Origin: a virus
DNA length: 43,289 nt
Strand: one strand, 5' to 3'
Virus record (IMG/VR): IMGVR_UViG_3300009168_000064
Coordinates: 1 to 43,289 of that record
Shown here: positions 336 through 18,757 of the stretch, piece after piece
Position numbering within the stretch: position 1 is the first letter of the stretch
How the letters are laid out: every line of letters begins with the position of its first letter
Made by a program: the position numbers and the translations under genes
The notes under the pieces: generated by a model
Databases searched by the model: none
What the model saw: the letters and a program-made list of their open reading frames with translations, nothing else
Told to the model about the DNA's origin: nothing

Positions 336-2993
336 TCAACCATTCGTTGCTTCATCCAATGTACTAAGTGATACACCCAATGCTTTAGCTACATCAGCTC
401 TAGTAGCACCAGATGCTAGCATAGATGCTGCTCTCTTAGTCTTAGCTGGTGTCATCAAGTAAACTTCATGTGGTGTAGCCAGCTTCTTAACTATCTCCAT
501 GTCGGCATTGCTAAGTATCTCGGTAAGCTTATGATCACTGATAGCCCCTGCTTGAATAGCATCCCATTGTTCTTGACTTATCTTGATTTGGGCCTTCTTA
601 GAACCGGTCTCAACACGAGCCTGCTCAAGAGACAACATCTTAATCTTGTTTAGTGTATCTTCATCCATGTTAGGATCATCGTTTCTCTTAGCTTTGATCC
701 TACTACTAGCAATGATTTGTGCCTGGCGCTCAAGGGGGCGTGCCTTCTTTGCTACGAATAGGGCGGCATCTAATTCCTCTACCTGTTTTGCATAGGTCTT
801 CTTAGCAGAGGGCACCCATACGGAGCGGGGGGTATTTTCAGCTTCAAGGCGGGCCTGGTTAGACATCTTCTTAAGCTTATTAGAATGATCGGCATAGAGA
901 CGTTCCATCTGTGTACCCGATGTAGTAGACATAAGTGTACGAGCATCGGTTGTTTCAGCTATCTTAGTACTCTTTGTAGTCCTTGGCTTACCTGTTCTAA
1001 AGTTTACCTTATTGGTGGGCTCATATCGAATCTCACCAGTAACCTTGTCAACAGGGCCGCCTTCTTTGTATGACCTAAGCTTCCTTTGTGGTACATACTC
1101 TGGTGACCTAGCCCTTGACAACAGGGTTGCTGCACCACCCTTAGCACTACCCTGATACTTCTGCTTTAGTTCTTTAATTCCATTATCATCATATGATTGC
1201 TTGTAATTAAGCTCATGCTTTTCAGCGTCAATAACAACCATCGAATGCTTAACAGCTCTAGTGATGTGATTAATAGGGGCGCCTTTAATGGACATGTCTG
1301 TAATAAGATTAGAAATCAAACCCATTTCTGTTTGGGTGTTTGACATTACTTTCATACCCTCATACTTTGGGTACGTTGCACGAGGGTCGAAGTTCATAAG
1401 TTCTTTAATAGCAGCTGTTGTATTAACATGACGCTGGTTGTTTGGTATCACAAGTACTGTGTCACCATCGAAGTCTGCGCCTGACAGTCTTCTTGCTACC
1501 TCATGGTTAATACCAATAGCATCGATTGTTTTAGAACTACCAAGAAGTCTTTTTGATTCAGCATGATTATTGTTTACTGTAAGTTCAGGGATTTCAAATG
1601 TGCCACCATGTGGGTGACGAATCAATACTACCTTTTCACCATGAAGAAAGGATGGTGCATATACCTGAGTTGGAGGTAGTGTAGATATTGGAAGAATAAC
1701 ATGCACACCTTGACGTGGTAATGCTGCAGCCTTAAGATGCACTGAAGCAGATGCTGTTTCTTCAGCGAATTCATTAAGCAACTTCTTACGAACAGCAGCA
1801 TTAGTAAGATCTTGAATACCCTTCAATTTCATTTGACGTTGTTCATGAGTCATGTCAAGCTGTGTCTTAGCAAGAGCAGGACTTTGTTTCGACAACATCT
1901 GAGAAGATAGGTTACGAGACCACTCGTTCCAATTGCCTTCTTCATTAACAATATTCATAGCCGAAGTAACTTTTTCGTTAGGTGTGCCTTTGTTATCAAC
2001 GATTTGACGAACCATAGATCCAAAAGGATTATCTTCATCTGCTTTGATTTCTTTCATAGCATCAAGTTTATTAGGCGAATCGCTTTTCTTTTTACTGGTA
2101 TGAAATTGGACATCTACTCCATCCGGTAGATCATCCTTGTACATGGCCATACCTTTTAGATAATGATTCTTACCAACAGCTACACGAACTTGAGCATAGT
2201 TCTTTCCACCCAACTCAACATCTTTAACGCCTCGCCTTACATAAATCATACCATCGGCGTCGCCGCCACCATCTTCTGCAAAAACAACATCAACCCGTTT
2301 TGGGTTAATTTGAAGAGGCGGATGCAAGCCATAGAAGTTTCTACCATGATCATCAGAAAACTGTTCAATGTGCTTAATCTTAGTTGGGTCCAGAAATATT
2401 TCTCTTTGCTTACTTCCAGGAGTACCAAGAACTTTCATGTTTGTATACTGTCCAGTACTAACTTGCTGTAATTTTAAATAATGCGTTTCATATCCTTCAT
2501 TATTTAATACCTGGACTGCAGTATCCATCATAGTTCTTGATACACCAGTACTATTCTCTACACCACTACCAATATCAATGAACCCATGCTTATCAACTTC
2601 TTCTCGCAACATCTTTGCTGTCGCCTGAAGATTGTCTGATTTATCAGCAGCGCCAGTAGCAAGAAGTGCTCTTACTGATGATTCATTCTTTCCCATCTTC
2701 TCACCAATAGCTACGTTTGAATATCCTTTATCCTTTAGTTTTTGTGCTTCTGTAATATCTTTTTGTCTTTGGTGATGTCTAGCAATAGACTTTTCTGCAC
2801 GATATTCTTTTTGAGACATATGAAGACCTTTAGCAATTAGAGCATCACTGAGTCCTTGACTTTTCATTTCTGAAATATAATCCAACAGATTCCTGTTATG
2901 GGTGTTTTCGTTTTCTCCAGATCCCCATGGATAACGCCCCGACCTACGAATAACACCATAATGCGCTAAATATTCTTCTTCCGTAATAAGCAT
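336..2993 (-). CDS. single-chain double-psi beta-barrel RNA polymerase
   Basis: An 885-residue protein with the signature of the two-barrel RNA polymerase superfamily. 'SGADFDGDTVLV' near residue 507 matches the Mg-binding D-x-D-G-D loop of beta-prime. It is preceded, as in beta-prime, by a 'VVLIRHP' strand and followed by a conserved helix region 'MSNTQTEMGLISNL'. Further upstream, 'LKGMAMYKDDLPDGVDVQF' (about 280-300) resembles the first barrel, that of beta. Known relatives include YonO of SPbeta and crAss-like phage polymerases. Helix-turn-helix-like stretches lie near residues 50-75 and 85-112 and at the extreme C-terminus. The N-terminus carries HYGVIRRSGRYPWGSG, related to a motif in two packaging-module proteins. 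ATG at 2993 has GGGGG upstream; 2999 and GTG 3002 are alternatives. It probably transcribes phage genes, and delivery in the virion is possible. Confidence 0.85.
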   Translation of the reverse strand: MLITEEEYLAHYGVIRRSGRYPWGSGENENTHNRNLLDYISEMKSQGLSDALIAKGLHMSQKEYRAEKSIARHHQRQKDITEAQKLKDKGYSNVAIGEKMGKNESSVRALLATGAADKSDNLQATAKMLREEVDKHGFIDIGSGVENSTGVSRTMMDTAVQVLNNEGYETHYLKLQQVSTGQYTNMKVLGTPGSKQREIFLDPTKIKHIEQFSDDHGRNFYGLHPPLQINPKRVDVVFAEDGGGDADGMIYVRRGVKDVELGGKNYAQVRVAVGKNHYLKGMAMYKDDLPDGVDVQFHTSKKKSDSPNKLDAMKEIKADEDNPFGSMVRQIVDNKGTPNEKVTSAMNIVNEEGNWNEWSRNLSSQMLSKQSPALAKTQLDMTHEQRQMKLKGIQDLTNAAVRKKLLNEFAEETASASVHLKAAALPRQGVHVILPISTLPPTQVYAPSFLHGEKVVLIRHPHGGTFEIPELTVNNNHAESKRLLGSSKTIDAIGINHEVARRLSGADFDGDTVLVIPNNQRHVNTTAAIKELMNFDPRATYPKYEGMKVMSNTQTEMGLISNLITDMSIKGAPINHITRAVKHSMVVIDAEKHELNYKQSYDDNGIKELKQKYQGSAKGGAATLLSRARSPEYVPQRKLRSYKEGGPVDKVTGEIRYEPTNKVNFRTGKPRTTKSTKIAETTDARTLMSTTSGTQMERLYADHSNKLKKMSNQARLEAENTPRSVWVPSAKKTYAKQVEELDAALFVAKKARPLERQAQIIASSRIKAKRNDDPNMDEDTLNKIKMLSLEQARVETGSKKAQIKISQEQWDAIQAGAISDHKLTEILSNADMEIVKKLATPHEVYLMTPAKTKRAASMLASGATRADVAKALGVSLSTLDEATNG

Positions 2994-3123
2994 GAGCATC
3001 ACCCCCTTCTTTTACCAAAGATGCGACCCATTTGAAAAACACAAGCGAACCTACTATCACACACAAAAACACAATAACACATGCGGTCACTAGCAGTATG
3101 TAGTAGATAAGCTTCGATCGCAC
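2944..3123 (-). CDS. small single-span membrane protein
   Basis: A 59-residue reading frame starting at GTG with GGGAG seven bases upstream. After a short basic start (RSK) comes a long hydrophobic segment, YYILLVTACVIVFLCVIVG, then a basic tail, as expected of a bitopic inner-membrane protein. Its last 17 codons overlap the start of the RNA polymerase gene in another frame, so translation may be coupled. It fills an otherwise empty gap between nuclease and polymerase. No family recognised; a holin-like or regulatory role is only a guess. Confidence 0.5.
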   Translation of the reverse strand: MRSKLIYYILLVTACVIVFLCVIVGSLVFFKWVASLVKEGGDAHAYYGRRIFSALWCYS

Positions 3124-3134
3124 GAAAAATCTCC

Positions 3135-3692
3135 CTAGAAATCAGAAGCCTTCATTTGTTCAATCTGTTGATCAAACGATATGATTTTCTCCATGATATC
3201 GATAATTCTTTCAGGAAATGGTTCGTAGACTCTAATTTCATCTCTTTGATAAATACGAAGTTCGATCTCTATTGAATATGGATCAACACTGTATTCCAAA
3301 CAAAACAAGGCAGCATAGACTTCTAGTTGCTGTTCTGAGGTAGGTGTAATGCCGGTTTTCAAATCATGAATACGAAGTTTACCTCGGCGAAAGGAAATGG
3401 TATCAGCCGTGCCGAAACAATTCTCAGAAAAATATAAAGGTTGCTCACATAACATTCTGTATCCAATAGCATCATTAACGTAAGTAGATAGGGCTTTGTT
3501 TGCTTTTGAAAATTTGACCCCAAGACGGATAGCTTCATGCGCAAGATTATGCAAATCAGTACCACGACGCGCTGCAGTAAATGCTACATAACGAGCTTCT
3601 AACTTCTGATCATCATAGTTAATCCAGTGATAATTGCTTGGACTAAGAAACGCGTGTTTCCCGTGCAAGTCCAAATGCGTGTTGAAGATCAC
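3135..3692 (-). CDS. PD-(D/E)XK nuclease, Cas4/RecB-like exonuclease
   Basis: A 185-residue protein with the core of RecB-type nucleases: 'GTADTISFRRGKLRIHDLKTG' around residues 94-114 supplies the catalytic Asp and the D-x-K pair, followed by 'EQQLEVYAALF', the usual Q-x-x-x-Y helix. 'RRGTDLHNLAHEA' near the N-terminus corresponds to the conserved G-x-x-x-H motif. No cysteine cluster of canonical Cas4 is evident. It probably processes DNA ends in replication or recombination. The start is GTG with GAGGAGG nine bases upstream, inside the end of the neighbouring nuclease gene (50-base overlap). Confidence 0.8.
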   Translation of the reverse strand: MIFNTHLDLHGKHAFLSPSNYHWINYDDQKLEARYVAFTAARRGTDLHNLAHEAIRLGVKFSKANKALSTYVNDAIGYRMLCEQPLYFSENCFGTADTISFRRGKLRIHDLKTGITPTSEQQLEVYAALFCLEYSVDPYSIEIELRIYQRDEIRVYEPFPERIIDIMEKIISFDQQIEQMKASDF

Positions 3693-3964: not shown

Positions 3965-4510
3965 TTATGGAGTAAATGGTGTTGCGCAAATAAAGGTTTC
4001 CCACAAACGACCATTGACATCTTCAAATACTACTTCGGCCGGTTGAAAACCCTCTTCACATAATATGGTGCCTGTGGCGCCTTTAGGTCCTGTTTCACCT
4101 ACAGGTCCAGCAGGCCCGGGAGGTCCCTGTACACCTTGCGGTCCAGGCACATCAGACGGAGCTCCTTGAGGACCTGGTATTCCTTGTTCCCCAGGTTCCC
4201 CTGAAGAACCATTAAGTCCAGGTGCTCCATTACTTCCTGGAGGCCCAATGATTCCAGGTGCACCATTAGTTCCATCTCTCCCATCATTTCCGGGAGGGCC
4301 AGGTTCTCCAGGCGGGCCAGGTTCACCAGGTGGGCCAGCAGGTCCGGTATTTCCAGCTTCTCCAGAAACTCCAGGAGTTCCAACTTCTCCGGCTTCACCA
4401 CGTGGGCCTTCCTGTCCATCTTTTGCAGTACCAAACGCAGCTAACCCAAGCAGCAAACCCATAATCAAGAAACAAAGAACCGCCAGCCCTAGCCAAAATG
4501 ATGATCTCAT
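3965..4510 (-). CDS. membrane-anchored or secreted collagen-like protein
   Basis: 181 residues. The N-terminal segment LGLAVLCFLIMGLLLGLAAF after 'MRSSF' is a signal anchor or signal peptide. Residues about 33-150 are Gly-X-Y triplets, many GPP and GEP, followed by a 30-residue globular tail with two cysteines (ILCEEGF...FICATPF) that could act as a trimerisation or capping domain. It starts with GAGG five bases before ATG and overlaps the stop of the upstream gene (ATGA). Collagen-like repeats are common in tail fibres, but the membrane anchor and the location among nuclease and holin-like genes argue for an exported or envelope protein. Function unknown. Confidence 0.75.
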   Translation of the reverse strand: MRSSFWLGLAVLCFLIMGLLLGLAAFGTAKDGQEGPRGEAGEVGTPGVSGEAGNTGPAGPPGEPGPPGEPGPPGNDGRDGTNGAPGIIGPPGSNGAPGLNGSSGEPGEQGIPGPQGAPSDVPGPQGVQGPPGPAGPVGETGPKGATGTILCEEGFQPAEVVFEDVNGRLWETFICATPFTP

Positions 4511-5503: not shown

Positions 5504-6703
5504 TCATTTGACGAAAATTGTCGACTCGCGTTCATTAAAGTTCTTTTTCTGATCCAAGGCTTTTTTCACGGCACTATCAATCGCCGACGAACTGCCGAGG
5601 ATATAGTAGTACAAATCGGTAAACGGTGTGTCCAAACGGTCAATTCGTCCTTGGCATTGAATAAAATTTTTGTACGAATAAGTAAGGGAGTAAAGCACCA
5701 TAGCATCCGTTTCCGTACAATTCCAACTTTCCGCCCCGGCAGAATATTGAACCAGGTATACCCAGCTATCCGTATCCGGTATTGGCTGATGCTGATGCCC
5801 ATTCCACTCAGCTATCGTGGTCACATCCCCAAGGCCCCTAAGAATTTGCAACTCGTAATCAAAATTGTAGAACACGATCAACTTAGGGTGAAACTTCATA
5901 ATGAACCGCACATTATCCAAACGACTAGGATCAGTATTGACAATGGTTCTAACTAGCCGAAATAGCTCACTAGCATCTTTAAGTGGACGATCTTCATATA
6001 CATGCCAACGATTCTTGACAACGAAATCCACAAGCTCCTTGTCGTATCCCACTGGCACGAAGTTGATGATCCGCTCCGTGTGCTTCACATAGGGCATCTC
6101 TACCAAGATCTCATTACGAAGTCGCTCGAGCTTAGACTCGCCTAGGTATCCCGTAACAATTGGGAACTTCACGTACGGCGCATAGATGACGTGTTGACGC
6201 TTGAAATCGGTGATGTTCTTGTACCACCCGTTGGCAATGAAGACAGGGGCATAATCCAGCCATGTATCTCCCGGAGTCGCGCTCAACAATATCCAGTGAT
6301 TCTTTTTTACCAGCTTCAGGAAATTCTTGACCCATGCTCCACTCCCCACCAGTCTCTGCTCATCGAAGATGAAGAACGCGTTCTCAATATCTAGGTAGTT
6401 CCCGATATTGTTCCAGGAGTCAACAGTCATGCATCCGGCAACAGAAGCATCGTAACTGTCACCAACACCAAATTTGGCTGCTTCGCCCTGCCACTCGAGG
6501 GAGTCTCTTTTCTTGGCAGTGGTAATAATATATAGATCTCGATGTGACTCACGCTCACAATAATACGCCAGAGAAACGGCGGACTTTCCAGCACCGACAC
6601 CTCCATACAAGATCTTCCCATTACTGAGGAACTGCAGGGCTTCCTTCTGATGTGGCATCAGCTCGAGAACGATCTCGGGTGGCTCCAACAAACATGCGTC
6701 CAT
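5504..6703 (-). CDS. SF2 DEAD/DEAH-like helicase
   Basis: 399 residues. Motif I GGVGAGKS at 34-41, motif II DEQR at 114-117, motif III SATP at 141-144, and motif VI QCQGRIDR at 349-356, in the order expected of superfamily 2. 'LMPHQKEALQFL' supplies a Q-motif-like N-terminus. It is shorter than typical SNF2-like phage helicases and has no extra nuclease or primase domain. GAGGAGG lies just before ATG at 6703. It may serve recombination, repair or origin melting alongside the SF3 helicase encoded at 10.7-14.4 kb. Confidence 0.88.
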   Translation of the reverse strand: MDACLLEPPEIVLELMPHQKEALQFLSNGKILYGGVGAGKSAVSLAYYCERESHRDLYIITTAKKRDSLEWQGEAAKFGVGDSYDASVAGCMTVDSWNNIGNYLDIENAFFIFDEQRLVGSGAWVKNFLKLVKKNHWILLSATPGDTWLDYAPVFIANGWYKNITDFKRQHVIYAPYVKFPIVTGYLGESKLERLRNEILVEMPYVKHTERIINFVPVGYDKELVDFVVKNRWHVYEDRPLKDASELFRLVRTIVNTDPSRLDNVRFIMKFHPKLIVFYNFDYELQILRGLGDVTTIAEWNGHQHQPIPDTDSWVYLVQYSAGAESWNCTETDAMVLYSLTYSYKNFIQCQGRIDRLDTPFTDLYYYILGSSSAIDSAVKKALDQKKNFNERESTIFVK

Positions 6704-8735: not shown

Positions 8736-8937
8736 TGGGGTATGTCCCCTCCGGTTTAACAACGAGTGCGGTTTTTTGTTTACCTGAACATCGGCTGATC
8801 ACGACCGATGCGTTCTGTGTAGCCTTCACAGTCAACCCAGGGCGGTCTGACAAATATTCACGCAAAGCGGCAACTAAACGTAAATACCCACAGACAGTAA
8901 GACTTCTACTTTGAGGAGTGCGAGCTCTCACAAGCAC
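8710..8937 (-). CDS. possible 75-residue protein
   Basis: GTG start at 8937 without a clear ribosome site. The protein has a plausible helix-strand pattern (LRLVAALREYLSDRPGLTVKA, then ASVVISRC, TALVVKPEG) and is compositionally like a real product. No family recognised. An inverted repeat (CTTAG...CTAAG, about 8950-8970) lies just upstream and could be regulatory. Confidence 0.45.
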   Translation of the reverse strand: MLVRARTPQSRSLTVCGYLRLVAALREYLSDRPGLTVKATQNASVVISRCSGKQKTALVVKPEGTYPNGPEATRI

Positions 8938-8991
8938 TGGGTAGTGGTCTTAGCGCCCTGACGCTCTAAGCCTAATGCGGTTTAACGTCGC

Positions 8992-9192
8992 TTAGTCGAC
9001 GGATTTAACTGTCCATTCACTAATATCAAGAATTCTCGAAATAGCAAGATTGGACCAGCCTCTTTTCCTCATTTCTATAATTTGAGAACGACGAAGTGCT
9101 TTTTGTTCGTCCTTTGCATTAATTCGTTCTTTTTTGAAATCTGAAGCTGATTTACCTAATGCTTCTGAAATTTCTCGATTAGTTTTTTCCAT
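8992..9192 (-). CDS. small helix-turn-helix protein
   Basis: 66 residues from ATG at 9192. The last 32 residues, RRSQIIEMRKRGWSNLAISR followed by ILDISEWTVKSV, form a resolvase/MarR-like helix-turn-helix (G-W-S-x-x-x-I-S-x-x-L-x-x-S-x-x-T-V). The preceding part is a charged helix. The start overlaps the end of the micro-gene at 9179. It could regulate phage transcription; as the only stand-alone HTH protein seen here, it is a candidate binder of the promoter family. Confidence 0.65.
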   Translation of the reverse strand: MEKTNREISEALGKSASDFKKERINAKDEQKALRRSQIIEMRKRGWSNLAISRILDISEWTVKSVD

Positions 9193-9304
9193 TGCTTCTC
9201 TTAGTCGACGGACGATGACCGCTGTCAAGTTTGAGAATCCAAACACCCGCTGCTGCACAAAACAGAAGCACTATAGAAAGTATGATTATAACTAAGCGGT
9301 TCAT
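9179..9304 (-). CDS. 41-residue single-span membrane protein
   Basis: Too short for most gene callers but well supported: AGGAGA three bases before ATG, start overlapping the upstream stop (TAATG), stop overlapping the HTH gene start. The sequence is a typical bitopic peptide: MNR, then LVIIILSIVLLFCAAAGVWI, then a basic tail (SGHRPSTKRSNGK). Function unknown. Confidence 0.6.
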   Translation of the reverse strand: MNRLVIIILSIVLLFCAAAGVWILKLDSGHRPSTKRSNGKN

Positions 9305-10046: not shown

Positions 10047-10519
10047 TCAAGCTTTTGCCGGGGGGTTCTCATTAATAGAGTACTTTCGTTCTAGGGCGTC
10101 CTCTTCGATCGTGACAAATAGTGACTGGAGATATGCTTTAGTACCCGTCTTACCATTGACATTCCAATCATAACCACGCGCAATAAGATCAGCGCTCTTG
10201 ATATCAGCATAATCCAGAACTTCAACACTGTCTTCATCAAGCTGAGTACGACTCGTGGAAGTAAGCAATACCACGCGAGGAGGGCGGTTTTTAAAGTAAC
10301 GGCGACTGAGACGTAGGCAGTGTCTTCGTCTCCTTCTTCTCGGGCTTCAAGATAACGTACGTTCCAGCCGTCGGCGAGCATTTGCTCAGCAATTTCCTTC
10401 GGGAGAATAACTGAAAAATTACGATCTCCTTCACGATTAAACTGTCCTTCTTTACCAGCAAAATTACGGAAAATGATCGGAGCGTCTTCTACCATAAACG
10501 TCTTTGCCTGATCAACCAT
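10047..10519 (-). CDS. ssDNA-binding-like phage protein made by -1 frameshift
   Basis: The first 77 codons (from 10519) and the frame reaching 10047 together make one coherent 157-residue protein: 'NFAGKEGQFNREGDRNFSVIL' ... 'SVAVTLK' | 'NRPPRVVLLTS' ... 'ALERKYS'. The joint lies at T-TTA-AAA (10295-10289). After a -1 slip the next codons read N-R-P-P-R-V, as I recall in single-frame homologues, which are often called ssDNA-binding-like. The zero frame continues into an improbable 65-residue hydrophobic and basic tail ending at 10091. A 9-base spacer and a stem-loop follow the heptamer. Either programmed frameshifting or a one-base deletion in the A run explains this. The gene lies downstream of the polymerase gene. 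Confidence 0.75.
10252..10295 (-). promoter_or_regulatory. candidate -1 ribosomal frameshift signal
   Basis: The slippery heptamer T-TTA-AAA is in the zero frame at 10295-10289. Nine bases later CTCGCGTGG (10279-10271) pairs with CCACGAG (10258-10252), leaving one bulged C. Heptamer, spacer length and stem are those expected of programmed -1 frameshifting. Confidence 0.6.
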
Positions 10520-10661
10520 TCTTAATCACCTTATCGTCTGCCCAATTTGGATCATGATCTGGATGCTGCAAAGCAACATGCTTTTTAACAGCCTCCAAAG
10601 AAGGATATGTTCGTCCCTTGTGGCAAGAGCGTGGACAGTAGTACACTTTTACTTCAGCCAT
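10512..10661 (-). CDS. zinc-finger microprotein
   Basis: 49 residues, MAEVKVYYCPRSCHKGRTYP followed by SLEAVKKHVALQHPDHDPNW and a short acidic tail. C-x3-C with H-x4-H twenty residues on is a C2H2-like zinc-binding arrangement. The ribosome site AAGGAGG is excellent and the ATG overlaps the stop of the polymerase gene (TGATG); its own end overlaps the ssDNA-binding-like gene by eight bases. It is thus a true member of the replication operon and probably binds DNA or a replisome partner. Confidence 0.78.
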   Translation of the reverse strand: MAEVKVYYCPRSCHKGRTYPSLEAVKKHVALQHPDHDPNWADDKVIKNG

Positions 10662-13600
10662 CACACCTCCTTCACTAATTCTTCATATGGAACAAACTTC
10701 TCAATAGCCTTCAGGGCGTCATTCTTTAAGCCATCGAAGTAATCCATATCAGTGAAGAGTTCGTCGATCTCATCTCTGTATTTGGCAATATCCCGTTCTA
10801 CCCACAAGAAATCTTTGGTACCACTTACATGATACTTCTTATCACCATCTACTCGCCACAAGACTCCACCATCGTAGCGAACAGGCATGAAGCTTCCTGT
10901 CTGTCCAACATGTCTCATGTCCTTGATGTCTTCTGCTCCATGCATATCAAGATACATGCGACCCTTAGTTACGTTCTTAGTCTCGCACAAATCGTCGAAC
11001 TCTAGCGGTTCTTTGGAAAATAGCTCTTTATAGACAAACGGATGTTGGAACTGTGCACCAACAGCAGTCCAGCCGCGATCATCACGAGCAACATATACTG
11101 CATCGTTAATGAGACAGAACTTCTCGTATGTAGTTTCATGCTCGAAGACATACCCGTACTCCTCTCCTAATTCACAAATAAATCTGATGAGCTCTGGTGT
11201 AGCTCCGGGAATTTTAATAGAGTCTGTCTTAATATGAACTACTTGAAAGCCCTCGTCTTGCACTGCGTGCTTCAGATCAATCATGAACAAGGCACCACGT
11301 TTAGCTACGACGTTATCCTTGTTGCGATTGTCTTTGAACATGTTCTCAAAACGAGCACTGGTAAGACCGTACACAATGTTGATCACGATCTTCAAAGCGT
11401 AGGCAAGCTGGTCGCCGGCGTCCGGATCATTCTCAGCATTGATAAGAAATGGCGCAATCTTACCGTCTAGACAGGCTCGAGCTCGGTCGTAATCGCGATT
11501 CTTGATAGCAATACGAGCGTCAACCAAGTCACTATAGTTCCGGGTGTAAGGGCCAAATAGATTGAGTTGCTCGATACTGGACGGATGCATAGAAACCACA
11601 TCAAGTACCACCACGTCAGTGTAGTATCCTGGTTCTGAATATACGTATCCACCTTCGCCAGTAACTTCGTCACAATATGTGCTTTGCTTCCCATCAAATA
11701 CGTATCCCGGGAACTGTTCACTTAGATCCGTGTACTGGAATTTCTTTTGCGGATGCTTATCTTCGCCAAAGATAATCTTGGCTGTGTGTTGCTGAGTAGT
11801 ATGATTAATAGATAGTCCAGACAATTCAGATAGAATTTGCCTAGCCACGAAGTCTTGTTCTCTGGCTTCGAATACAGCTTCAGTAGAAATAACATCATTA
11901 ACACAATATTCCTCCACTTTCGACCAAACTCCCTCAGGCACTGGCTCGTCCCAAGGAAGATCTAGTTCTTGGTGATGAAGTCCAAGTTCAATCTGAAACT
12001 TCTTCAGACCTTGTTTCTTGGAACTAAAATCGAAAATATCAGCATAAGACAAGTTGTACGCTTCACCAAACATTGCACTATTATTGCCTTTTGGATTCTT
12101 AATGATTCGTTGACTCAAATCAAATAACTCTTCGAGAGTATAACCAAGATATCTTGCATATAGTATATGGTTGTCGTATCTACGGTTATTGAACCCAACA
12201 AGTCTCTGCCCAAAAAGAGGCTCGAGCTCCTCTGCCGTAGGATTGATCATACGAACAACTATCCCAGAGCCTTGTGTCTTCCAACACACAATGAACAAGT
12301 TGGGATACACTTCCACATCAAAGAACAATAGTGCTTTGTTCTCGACATGTTCTGGTTCTGGCATCTCATTTTTGCCAACGAATTTCATAGTTTGTACAAG
12401 TTTGATACAAGCGGTTGCTTGATTAGTACTGTTTGCTGCAAATGTTAGGATTACTGGGCGAAGATCTCGAACATCATAAGCAAGTCCAATCTCATAGGCA
12501 TCCTCTAGAATATGATGAATGAAATCAATTGATGGCTTCGTGCCAGGGTGAATTTCCTTCCGTAGATTCCTCTCAATGAGTTCCCTAAGACCTTTCTCAC
12601 TCTGAATACTCTTAGTCTCGATCATCTTCTTCTCTTTCTTAGGCAATCCCCCGTTGAGCGTCATGATATCGAGATTATTACATTTAGTGAGTTTCCTCCG
12701 AAGAGAACTATCACCCAAGAGAGTTTTTACTTCGACGCCAGTCTCAATCATAGAACCAAGCTCATGCACATCACCGCTGTAAATATAGTGCAGGTGTATG
12801 CCTTTGCCGCTTTTACTTAATTCTGTATACGTTGGCGGAAATTTTGACGCAGCCTCGATGTTCTTTGTAAGATCTTTTTCGCCGTTATCGTCGACCAAAT
12901 CGAAATCAATTACGATATGTTGTTCTGGAATCTTTACGTAATGTAGATCAGTAACATCAATGTCCTGCAGCGTAGTTGTTACTTGATCCCACTTTTTACT
13001 CGGATATCCACTATCCGTTGTCCCCTGTGCTGGTTGATGAGCGTACGCAGTATTGAAGGCAGAGTCATGATAAACAGGAATGTAGTCATCCAGTTCAATG
13101 ACGTAGGAGGTGTCCGGTACGAACGGGATCGGACCTTGCTCGGGAAGGCCTTTGAAACCAATGTATACACTCCTGTATTCTTTGTCTCCCATAAAATAAC
13201 GGTCCTTGAAGTCTTCAAAGTAACTACTCAGTTCATCTCGAACTTCGTGATACTGAAGCCGCTTAATGATGTTTGCTTCTTCACAATACTGCTTGTAAAG
13301 TTCCCAAACACGCTTAAGCTGAATCGCTTCTGTGGACTTGAAAATATCAAAGTGAGCTTCTACAAAGTTGTAGAAAGTGTCCGTCAGCATCATCATCTTC
13401 GTGGGAATATAGTTCTCGTAGTAATACTTTCCCATTTTTCGATAACGTTCTAGACACTTGTATGCAATCTGCCCAAGTTCAAAGTTGATGTTTTCAGTTA
13501 GAATATGGTATCGTCCTGGCTCAATCTTCACACCAGTTGGGTGAACGTCAATCAACCGTCGAGTATTACCTGCTTTTGCGTCTGTGATCTTTACTGGTTT

Positions 13601-14443
13601 GTTGGTACCAATGATCAAGAACGCGTTTGGTCGTATCGTATATGCAGATCTATACTTGATGTTGATTGTCATTGAGTCATGTCCCACAATCGAATTCAAC
13701 TTCGTGTTGTCTTCGACTCGAGACAAATCTCCATCGTGTTGAATAGCAACCAAAGGATTGCTCTCAAACGACTCCATAGAAAATGGACTGTGATTACTAG
13801 TAAGTGCTTTGGCTTCAAAGGTTGCTACATAGCCAGTGAACAATTTCTCGATAATATCGATGACTGTTGACTTACCAGTAGCTGGCGGTCCATAGAATAC
13901 TAGAAACTTCTGAATCCATTTGGAATCACCAGCCACAATAGCGCCAATAGCCCACTCAATTTTATCACGCTCTGTAGGAGAATATAGAACATTAAGTAGC
14001 TCATCCCATGCGTCGGTCTTACCGTTCTGTAACGAATATGGTAGACGTTTGCTGACAAAGTCTTTCTTCTTTACTTCCGTGTTGGCAAAGGTAATGTTCT
14101 CATCCAAGGGATGATAGTTACCCTTCTCCGGAAGGTTTCGAATATACCTGTTAAATCGTTCCCAACTACCTGAACTGAAGTTCCTAGTTAACAACGGTTC
14201 GATGGTTTGTCCTGCTTTTCTAGCTTCATCGACATAAGCATACAGATCAGCATCTACAAATTTCTGTACATCGAACTCACTTGTCGACCACATTCCTGAC
14301 GCTTCATCCCATACTGCATAAAATGAACCGCCTCTGATCATCAAGTCGTCAAAATGATCAACAACCCAGTCGGGGTACGCTTGTGCTAAACCTCTGGCTT
14401 CTCTAGTTCTTATCTTATAGAAATCCACGTCCCCTCCCTTCAT
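10661..14443 (-). CDS. fused SF3 helicase, AEP primase, exonuclease and family B DNA polymerase
   Basis: A 1260-residue replisome protein. Residues 1-430: SF3 (D5/P4-like) helicase with Walker A GPPATGKST at 185-193, 'FLIIGTNKPV' (sensor-like) and an Arg-finger-like 'NTRRL'. Residues 450-605: archaeo-eukaryotic primase signature, D513-F-D515, SGKGIHLH at 545-552 and GVEVK near 570. Residues 703-865: DEDDy 3'-5' exonuclease, D709/E711, D757, Y846/D850. Residues 940-1260: family B polymerase, motif A VLDVVSMHPSS (D948), motif B K1018...N1022..YG, motif C K-T-D1074-S, where the usual first Asp is Lys. Thumb and C-terminus follow. GTG at 14428, preceded by GGGAGGGG, is a strong alternative start to the coupled ATG at 14443. 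It is the sole replicative polymerase visible here. Confidence 0.88.
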   Translation of the reverse strand: MKGGDVDFYKIRTREARGLAQAYPDWVVDHFDDLMIRGGSFYAVWDEASGMWSTSEFDVQKFVDADLYAYVDEARKAGQTIEPLLTRNFSSGSWERFNRYIRNLPEKGNYHPLDENITFANTEVKKKDFVSKRLPYSLQNGKTDAWDELLNVLYSPTERDKIEWAIGAIVAGDSKWIQKFLVFYGPPATGKSTVIDIIEKLFTGYVATFEAKALTSNHSPFSMESFESNPLVAIQHDGDLSRVEDNTKLNSIVGHDSMTINIKYRSAYTIRPNAFLIIGTNKPVKITDAKAGNTRRLIDVHPTGVKIEPGRYHILTENINFELGQIAYKCLERYRKMGKYYYENYIPTKMMMLTDTFYNFVEAHFDIFKSTEAIQLKRVWELYKQYCEEANIIKRLQYHEVRDELSSYFEDFKDRYFMGDKEYRSVYIGFKGLPEQGPIPFVPDTSYVIELDDYIPVYHDSAFNTAYAHQPAQGTTDSGYPSKKWDQVTTTLQDIDVTDLHYVKIPEQHIVIDFDLVDDNGEKDLTKNIEAASKFPPTYTELSKSGKGIHLHYIYSGDVHELGSMIETGVEVKTLLGDSSLRRKLTKCNNLDIMTLNGGLPKKEKKMIETKSIQSEKGLRELIERNLRKEIHPGTKPSIDFIHHILEDAYEIGLAYDVRDLRPVILTFAANSTNQATACIKLVQTMKFVGKNEMPEPEHVENKALLFFDVEVYPNLFIVCWKTQGSGIVVRMINPTAEELEPLFGQRLVGFNNRRYDNHILYARYLGYTLEELFDLSQRIIKNPKGNNSAMFGEAYNLSYADIFDFSSKKQGLKKFQIELGLHHQELDLPWDEPVPEGVWSKVEEYCVNDVISTEAVFEAREQDFVARQILSELSGLSINHTTQQHTAKIIFGEDKHPQKKFQYTDLSEQFPGYVFDGKQSTYCDEVTGEGGYVYSEPGYYTDVVVLDVVSMHPSSIEQLNLFGPYTRNYSDLVDARIAIKNRDYDRARACLDGKIAPFLINAENDPDAGDQLAYALKIVINIVYGLTSARFENMFKDNRNKDNVVAKRGALFMIDLKHAVQDEGFQVVHIKTDSIKIPGATPELIRFICELGEEYGYVFEHETTYEKFCLINDAVYVARDDRGWTAVGAQFQHPFVYKELFSKEPLEFDDLCETKNVTKGRMYLDMHGAEDIKDMRHVGQTGSFMPVRYDGGVLWRVDGDKKYHVSGTKDFLWVERDIAKYRDEIDELFTDMDYFDGLKNDALKAIEKFVPYEELVKEV

Positions 14444-14988: not shown

Positions 14989-15729
14989 TTACTCTTCTCT
15001 GAATTTACGAACGGAATGCTTGAAGTCTTCGTGATTTAACTCGTCCTCAAGCTGCCCACCAAGCACCTCAACCTGAAAATATCCATGGTCAAGGAGAACT
15101 TCGAAGTCAGCCTTTAGATCATCGTTTCGAACATAAACAATGTTGGGGTCTTGAGATCCACGTCCAAACTCAAGTTCCCCTACCAGTTTATGGTGATTAT
15201 AAATGGGAGTATCATCAGTATCACAAAGAACATTATCAGCCAGATAATACTGAAGTGTGGTTTGGCTGTGATCTGGTTCGTTGAGAAAAAACTCATCCCT
15301 ATGGATGGTATAAGGAACGCCTGGTCGGCGCTTCTTTACTTCTTCCTCTTCGTTCCAATCGTCCTCAATCCCTGAGAATATGTTGTTTGGCTCTTGAGCA
15401 CTAGCAGTAGGATGTACTGACATTGATCTTAATTCTTCTGCTTGCCTTTCTAGAAAGTTCGTTCCTTCGTCTCTAAACTTTTTTACAACATGTCCTGCTT
15501 GTTGAAATAAGCCATTCATCTTTTCCTGATCCTCATCCAACTTGAATTGAAGCTGGACAACATCCGATTCAAATTTAACTGTGGTGTTCTCTAGCTTCTT
15601 GACTAGCTTTTCTAACCTCTTGTATCGGTATGAGCTAAACAAACATCCTACACCCACACCGACCCCAAAGGAGACAACTCCAACTGCTGATGGAATCGTC
15701 CATTGCGGTTTCCATTGCAATCGCATCAT
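14989..15729 (-). CDS. membrane-anchored coiled-coil protein
   Basis: 246 residues. N-terminal membrane helix (AVGVVSFGVGVGVGCLFSSY), then about 80 residues of coiled coil (KRLEKLVKKLENTTVKFESD...ERQAEELRSM), a short disordered linker, and a C-terminal domain beginning 'RPGVPYTIHRDEFFLNE...SQTTLQYYLADNVLCDTDD' that ends in 'VYVRNDDLKADFEVLLD'. I recall this C-terminal pattern from conserved phage proteins of unknown role. The start is coupled to the upstream DUF6353-like gene (ATGA). Probably anchored in the host membrane, or carried in the virion. Confidence 0.72.
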   Translation of the reverse strand: MMRLQWKPQWTIPSAVGVVSFGVGVGVGCLFSSYRYKRLEKLVKKLENTTVKFESDVVQLQFKLDEDQEKMNGLFQQAGHVVKKFRDEGTNFLERQAEELRSMSVHPTASAQEPNNIFSGIEDDWNEEEEVKKRRPGVPYTIHRDEFFLNEPDHSQTTLQYYLADNVLCDTDDTPIYNHHKLVGELEFGRGSQDPNIVYVRNDDLKADFEVLLDHGYFQVEVLGGQLEDELNHEDFKHSVRKFREE

Positions 15730-16616
15730 CCTCCCTTCTTATCAAGCTTGTCGTAGATGACGCCATCAACATTGAAGTCGAGCAGAATTGAACGTTCGCC
15801 GCCGTTCACAAAACGTGAATTATATGCATTATAGATATTAAAGTCAACATAATTATCACCAGAACCGTCGTTGTTTCTAAACCAACCAACAACAGCGCCG
15901 GCACCACTTCGTTCGATCCCCAACATGTCATACACTTCGTTGAGAAATAAATGCCCCCTGGCGATTAGGAGATTGTTGGCATAATTTTGCTGACACTGAA
16001 TGAAGAGTTGATTTACTTCTGGTTCTCTTCGCCATTCTTTGGACCATTCATCAAAGAATCGTGCATATGGAGACATCTTATTAGGATCAACTATCTTGAA
16101 TTCTTCTTTATTGTGTATCTCTGTCTTTGCTCCGTGATATAGATCGAGCTCTTTCTCTTCACCAAGTTCTTCACGTACACGATCTCTGTAATTATTAAAT
16201 GCTTCTTGTACTGCTGCATAAGCAGCCATCAATGCTGTGTTACGCTTAGTGAGTTCAAGATGTGATTTAGTGAGCATAGCAATTGAGCCTACGCCAATAA
16301 GAACTGCTGGCCCATATAGCTTTACAATCTTGATCGTGCCTTTGGTATATACATAACTTGCGTCTTTTGCGTATTCGTTCTCAGAATATGCAGTAAGACC
16401 AGTCTTGTCTGAAGTCTCTTTTAACGTCTTCACACTCTTGACATCATTATGAATCTCATCAAGAGTAGCAGAAAGCTTCAATGTTGCCCGACAAGCAAGA
16501 ACGGTACTAGTGACGACCCCAACAACACCAGCAACGAACAGAATATGAGGAGAATTCTTCTTAAGAATTAATGTTTGCCGACCAAAATTCCTTGTCAATG
16601 CAACCGGTAATGCCAT
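15726..16616 (-). CDS. DUF6353-like phage membrane protein, copy 1
   Basis: 296 residues with two hydrophobic segments (HILFVAGVVGVVTSTVLACRA; IVKLYGPAVLIGVGSIAMLTK) joined by a charged helix, then a helical 'AYAAVQEAFNNYRDRVREELG' and a C-terminal domain rich in W, N and Y ending 'VNGGERSILLDFNVDGVIYD'. Architecture, and segments such as 'Y..YRD.V.EE.G', match the gene at 18002, so the two are paralogues. The starts and stops of both neighbours overlap (TAATG, ATGA). Function unknown; DUF6353 assignment is from memory. Confidence 0.72.
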   Translation of the reverse strand: MALPVALTRNFGRQTLILKKNSPHILFVAGVVGVVTSTVLACRATLKLSATLDEIHNDVKSVKTLKETSDKTGLTAYSENEYAKDASYVYTKGTIKIVKLYGPAVLIGVGSIAMLTKSHLELTKRNTALMAAYAAVQEAFNNYRDRVREELGEEKELDLYHGAKTEIHNKEEFKIVDPNKMSPYARFFDEWSKEWRREPEVNQLFIQCQQNYANNLLIARGHLFLNEVYDMLGIERSGAGAVVGWFRNNDGSGDNYVDFNIYNAYNSRFVNGGERSILLDFNVDGVIYDKLDKKGG

Positions 16617-18001: not shown

Positions 18002-18757
18002 TTACAGCGGCACATAGTAATTGTAATCAAACGCCAGACAAGGACGTTCGTCTTCAGTAAGTACGGCTGTGAATTGCAATTCCATTAATCTATCGGATTT
18101 CCAACCAACATTTGACGAGGATGCAGTTGGATTAATACCTATCATGTAATAGAAATCATCGAATGTAGCATAATCGTGCGTCAATACTCGCTTATTGAGT
18201 AAATTCTCTGCTTTATGCAGTTTGTCTGCATCACTTGTGAAATATCGTCCTGTGTACATCTCCATACACAGCACATTACCTGGACCAGTTACGAGAACCT
18301 CCTGTGACGGAGGAGGATTCTCTTTTACTCTATCGGCTGCCACTTTATCTCGAATGGATTGGTCTTTACGTGCACCAAACTCTTCAATGACCTTATCTCT
18401 ATAATCAGAATATACCTGTTGGGATACTGTGAGTGCAGTTTGAGCTGCAATTGTCTTGTTGGTTGCAAATCGATTTGCGCAGACGATACAAGTGATTGTA
18501 GATGCTGCCGAAACGGCTGATGGAATATAAAGCTTCCAGACAAGTTTCGTCCGTTCGATTAAGCGTTCCTTAGGATCAGCATGTGTTCCAGTAGCATCTT
18601 CGTCTAATCTAATGATCTCTGCTGCCTCGAATGATGCTTTTCCTACTAAATATGCTGTAACAAGCGTACCCAAACCTGCTACACCTGACAAAATAAGAGG
18701 AGAATGGTGCTTTGCATTCCGTCGAACTAATCTACCGATATCGCCTATGTTCATCAT
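18002..18757 (-). CDS. DUF6353-like phage membrane protein, copy 2
   Basis: 251 residues with two hydrophobic segments (PLILSGVAGLGTLVTAYLVGKA; LYIPSAVSAASTITCIVCANR) separated by an acidic and basic helix, then 'SQQVYSDYRDKVIEEFGARK' and a C-terminal domain that contains 'DDFYYMIGINPTASSSNVGWKS' and ends '...LAFDYNYYVPL'. The domain order parallels copy 1 at 15726. Two ATG codons in tandem overlap the stop of the upstream micro-gene. Likely partner or antagonist of copy 1 in the same membrane assembly; function unknown. Confidence 0.72.
   Translation of the reverse strand: MMNIGDIGRLVRRNAKHHSPLILSGVAGLGTLVTAYLVGKASFEAAEIIRLDEDATGTHADPKERLIERTKLVWKLYIPSAVSAASTITCIVCANRFATNKTIAAQTALTVSQQVYSDYRDKVIEEFGARKDQSIRDKVAADRVKENPPPSQEVLVTGPGNVLCMEMYTGRYFTSDADKLHKAENLLNKRVLTHDYATFDDFYYMIGINPTASSSNVGWKSDRLMELQFTAVLTEDERPCLAFDYNYYVPL

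Follow-up and report, generated by a model that had tools for sequence, protein, structure and literature searches.

The fusion of a superfamily 3 (SF3) helicase, a primase and a family B DNA polymerase (PolB), known as HelPrimPolB, was reportedly first described in a 2016 survey of viral replication. The name HelPrimPolB was given by Kazlauskas et al. (2020; PMC7544198), citing earlier work, to the group of PolBs that are fused to an SF3 helicase and a PrimPol. A protein with this fusion, GP55 of Lactococcus phage 1706 (L002:13583-17536), has been purified by Zhang et al. as a 'four-in-one replicase' (PMC12205980). Unwinding by GP55 depends on UTP or dTTP, its RNA priming has a strong site at 5'-CCAAC-3' and prefers GTP for initiation, and it further possesses 3'-5' exonuclease, polymerase and strand displacement activities (PMC12205980). 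GP55 is mostly dimeric, its primase and polymerase are able to cooperate in trans, and its alpha-helical domain (aHD) is essential for priming; mutations of K189 abolish the helicase activity, those of D509, Y655 and F667 the primase activity, those of D712 and E714 the exonuclease activity and that of D949 the polymerase activity (PMC12205980).

Here we analyzed a 43,289-nucleotide stretch of viral DNA (hereinafter, the window; IMG/VR record IMGVR_UViG_3300009168_000064), which encodes, on the minus strand at positions 10661-14443, a 1260 aa protein starting with ATG. The open reading frame is uninterrupted, with no internal stops, and a single chain contains, in this order, an SF3 helicase, an archaeo-eukaryotic primase (AEP), an aHD, a DEDDy exonuclease and a PolB, that is, the succession of SF3 helicase, AEP and PolB that characterizes HelPrimPolB or GP55-like proteins. 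The match to PHROG 4210 in the PHROGs search runs end to end, from residue 6 to residue 1259, with 1782 bits. Compared by published description, the HelPrimPolB group, where the SF3 helicase and PrimPol are likewise N-terminal to PolB, revealed no difference from the window protein. GP55 has the same domain order and a similar length (1317 aa), the additional 57 aa falling in extra segments that are mostly close to the C terminus; 496 of the 1217 aligned residues (41%) are identical, and all 7 residues mutated in GP55 are the same in the window protein (K191, D515, Y656, F668, D709, E711 and D948). Gordonia phage Pherobrine gp63 and Streptomyces phage RosaAsantewaa gp39, with 54-55% identity to the window protein over the whole length, are annotated as 'DNA primase/polymerase', a label that leaves out the helicase. 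The PrimPols of phage NrS-1 and pRN1 ORF904 also join the AEP catalytic fold and a helicase domain in one protein, but differ in being without a PolB and in having a helix-bundle domain in place of the aHD.

Taken together, we consider it highly probable (about 0.95) that this protein is the phage's own replicase, an orthologue of GP55 within the HelPrimPolB group, which would work as follows. The N-terminal SF3 helicase domain would open the duplex and aid dimerization, and the AEP and aHD would jointly synthesize a short primer of RNA on the strand thereby exposed. The C-terminal PolB would then receive this primer, either in cis or from the other subunit of the dimer, and extend it, with proofreading by the exonuclease; the SSB and SF2 helicase encoded downstream might assist. 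The domain composition, the AEP fold and the conservation of the catalytic and GP55-mutated residues were established directly here, and each of the predicted activities is one demonstrated for GP55. A single chain that unwinds, primes, copies and proofreads amounts to a minimal replisome and might serve as a tool for amplifying DNA without added primers, a value that rests on the published GP55. What the present analysis adds is the conservation of the active sites across the family, the outlying P-loop of GP55, natural split versions of the replicase, and a consistent partner gene for an RNA polymerase homologue.

The initial annotation of this locus recognized the motifs of the helicase, primase, exonuclease and PolB in series within 1260 residues, and both the profile matches and the AEP model described below agree with that reading. 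It also implied that such a fusion is rare, and named wide description of the same fusion elsewhere as grounds for abandoning the claim. Given that the group has been named (PMC7544198), that GP55, with the same fusion, has been characterized (PMC12205980), that the family corresponds to PHROG 4210 and that it is present in more than 250 phage records, the claim of a new fusion falls: the fusion is real and was correctly read but already known, and the window protein is one more member of the family. The survey of databases for the same domain order, which had been proposed along with that claim, yielded matches at E<=1e-100 in 253 of 50,697 phage records, 251 of these at a coverage of at least 80%. 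Two features, the aHD after the primase and the linked RNA polymerase gene, were missed initially.

The helicase core (residues ~140-400; 13244-14026, minus strand) matches PF19263 (DUF5906) in Pfam above the cut-off (E=1.2e-12) and the P4-family primase C-terminal domain TIGR01613 in NCBIfam below the model cut-off (E=1.9e-16), and profile matches to primase-helicases in PDB, including 6k9e and 6k9c, were found for the same part. Its motifs are Walker A GPPATGKS at 185-192, the sensor N281 and the arginine finger R295/R296. The exonuclease (residues ~700-865; 11849-12346, minus strand), with D709, E711, D757, Y846 and D850, matches phrog_1252 and phrog_403. The palm, fingers and thumb of PolB occupy residues ~866-1255 (10679-11848, minus strand), with D948 as motif A, K1018-N1022-YG as motif B and KTDS at 1072-1075 as motif C; in profile searches, residues 925-1076 match models of DNA polymerase II as well as chains in PDB.

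The primase is faint at the sequence level: PF09250 was detected at E<=1 in 46 of 64 relatives, with the best E-value of 0.0017, which is weak, and a sequence-profile search with the AEP and aHD part returned no primase among its PDB matches. Therefore residues 425-700 were modeled with AlphaFold from a 64-sequence alignment, giving a mean pLDDT of 92.1; a structure prediction had been suggested in the initial annotation, and it bore out the AEP fold. All 8 Foldseek matches of the model at E<=0.001 are NrS-1 or pRN1 primase-polymerases, the best VIA-align match is the NrS-1 PrimPol (Z 9.8, with 142 residues aligned at 3.4 A), and 15 of the best 15 matches are primase-polymerases. Thus, the AEP catalytic domain (residues 455-604; 12632-13081, minus strand) is clear in the modeled structure, and it contains motif I DxD (D513, D515), the motif II histidine (H550/H552) and the acidic residue of motif III (E571). 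The four helices that follow in the model form the aHD (residues ~611-694; 12362-12613, minus strand), where Y656 and F668 correspond to Y655 and F667, the priming-essential pair of GP55; the matches listed in the structure search with this domain were generic helical proteins.

Conservation was scored over 159 aligned replicase sequences. Invariant among these are G185, G190 and K191 of Walker A, N281, R295 and R296 in the helicase; D513, D515, H550 and E571 in the AEP; D709, E711, D757, Y846 and D850 in the exonuclease; and D948, N1022, YG 1025-1026 and KTDS 1072-1075 in the polymerase. H552 and K1018 have one exception each, and the acidic Walker B residues D237 and D239 are retained in 157 and 154 sequences, respectively. 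The helicase thus displays Walker A, an acidic Walker B, the sensor-1 asparagine and the arginine finger that define SF3, and the C-terminal half displays Exo I-III and the Pol motifs A, B and C of family B. Motif C is KTDS instead of DTDS, the first aspartate being missing, as would be expected if the fused protein carried decayed modules, such as a catalytically dead AEP or a polymerase without activity. However, GP55, whose polymerase works, has KTDS as well, so this variant is normal for the group, and the invariance of KTDS across the alignment, together with the conservation of the P-loop lysine and of the main acidic residues at the active sites for priming, exonuclease and polymerization, makes such decay very unlikely.

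A difference between the two replicases concerns the P-loop, which is the canonical GKS in the window protein and GKG in GP55. The serine, S192, is found in 154 of the 159 sequences, and the remaining 5, namely GP55 and four of the 158 others, have glycine. This glycine might be linked to the UTP/dTTP preference of GP55, in which case the UTP/dTTP-driven unwinding may not carry over to the window protein and, GP55 being an outlier, may be atypical of the family.

The possibility that the long frame results from an assembly or sequencing fusion of neighboring genes, such as a missed stop, which had been raised in the initial annotation, deserves consideration also in light of the adjoining SSB gene, where a one-base frame break occurs in the same contig. 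No sign of such an error was found in the replicase gene itself, however. The whole replicase is encoded as a single ORF in 157 of 174 related loci, the fused protein spans at least 80% of the query in the 251 phage records mentioned above, and a fused protein of the same family, GP55, has already been purified, so an artefact is extremely improbable and the genuine fusion is retained. Beyond phages with database records, the scan of IMG/VR yielded at least 445 confirmed relatives, and that of GTDB genomes 101, with many Clostridia among the matches listed.

Among the other 17 loci, two (L150 and L165) carry an HNH-like gene within the replicase and one (L149) has a frameshift-like break; the rest are below the span limits, mostly at contig ends. 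In L150 (10600-11950) and L165 (2200-2900), the replicase is split between the exonuclease and the polymerase, with the HNH-like gene in between, at approximately residue 908-929 of the window protein, after '...YTDLATGEQS'. The upstream half ends at a stop codon of its own and the polymerase half reopens with its own ATG, and no group I intron was detected in these loci with Rfam; accordingly, an intron was rejected and these are split genes. In T4-like phages, polymerase genes are split by homing endonucleases in a similar pattern. Another candidate for a split replicase, gene 55 ('helicase') of Streptomyces phage CricKo (L018:5971-6468), was discarded because an intact full-length replicase is encoded a few genes downstream; the product of this gene, 165 aa long, is a paralogue of part of the helicase domain with 26% identity.

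Immediately downstream of the replicase, two small genes on the minus strand had been described initially as an SSB-like and a zinc-finger gene, and both are real. The first encodes a 49-aa C2H2-like zinc-finger mini-protein (10512-10661) whose ATG overlaps the replicase stop and for which no Pfam match was found; the second, an ssDNA-binding protein (10056-10519), matches PF24083 over its first part with E=4e-29. The frame of the SSB gene is broken near position 10290, so that two frames are present in the window, and the operon of this contig may not be intact. The break falls on T-TTA-AAA, which could point to a programmed -1 frameshift; however, none of 10 close relatives is shifted there, which makes the loss of one base, by error or mutation, in the window contig the likelier and probable explanation, and of the 152 sources where the SSB is detected, 149 have a single-frame match longer than 120 aa. 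Beyond the SSB gene follow an HTH gene (8992-9258), an SF2-type DNA helicase (5504-6703, minus strand; phrog_62, E=4e-52), an HNH nuclease, an exonuclease (3135-3692, minus strand; phrog_3953, E=1e-75) and an 888-aa protein. The initial suggestion of a nearly self-contained replisome is right. Amid these replication and nuclease genes, at 3965-4510 on the minus strand, lies a gene for a collagen-like Gly-X-Y protein with tail-fibre-type PHROG matches.

A resembling series of genes is found in Streptomyces phage Scap1. Phage 1706, similarly to the window, encodes an SSB (gp66), a helicase, a nuclease and RNA-polymerase-like genes downstream of the replicase, the labels after the replicase being, in order, single strand annealing protein, helicase, endonuclease, exonuclease and RNA-dependent RNA polymerase. 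The host lineages differ, however, the best TerL match of the window being to Streptomyces phages. Judging from the 84% identity between the terminase of the window and its counterpart in Streptomyces phage RosaAsantewaa, the host is probably an actinobacterium.

The 888-aa protein (336-3002, minus strand; phrog_4291) is a homologue of two-barrel, QDE-1/YonO-like RNA polymerases, with both the DxDGD metal-binding motif and the double-psi-barrel core of this class. The ADFDGD motif is invariant in 34 aligned sequences, and Pfam gives a weak RdRP match. The structural model (mean pLDDT 76) aligns to RDR2 and QDE-1 with Z 17-18 over 366-420 residues, in contrast to the far lower Z of ~10 for multi-subunit polymerases; a plain Foldseek search with this model gave no match at E<=0.001, with RNA polymerases at the top of its rows. 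In actinophages, this protein is often labeled as HTH or hypothetical protein.

The homologue was found in 250 phage records, compared to 253 for the replicase. By the first word of the phage name, both genes give the same counts (Arthrobacter 95, Gordonia 55, Streptomyces 54, Lactococcus 13, Siphovirus 12, Curtobacterium 7, Rhodococcus 4 and Microbacterium 4), the pairing being based on these counts by name and not on matched lists of records. The terminase counts are similar for Arthrobacter, Gordonia and Streptomyces (98, 55 and 54, respectively), so shared descent could account for the pairing. A tentative and rather doubtful alternative is that the replicase and the RNA polymerase homologue, the latter encoded among the last genes of the same phages, form a paired core and act together, one replicating and the other transcribing the genome largely without host polymerases, with a ribozyme of the same operon possibly cutting the transcript.

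This ribozyme is a Pistol self-cleaving ribozyme (8929-9001, minus strand; RF02679, 37.4 bits against a cut-off of 34.5) that sits in the replication operon where the HTH gene ends. It is present in 7 of 9 close relatives (L004, L005, L007, L009, L011, L012 and L017). With a model built from these seven and the window sequence, whose automatically derived structure departs from the genuine pistol fold so that detection is mainly by sequence, it was found in 22 of 90 sources, always on the strand of the replicase and downstream of it. Upstream of the replicase, two phrog_2152 paralogues are encoded near each other on the minus strand (15726-16616 and 18002-18757), the first of which also matches PF19880 (DUF6353).
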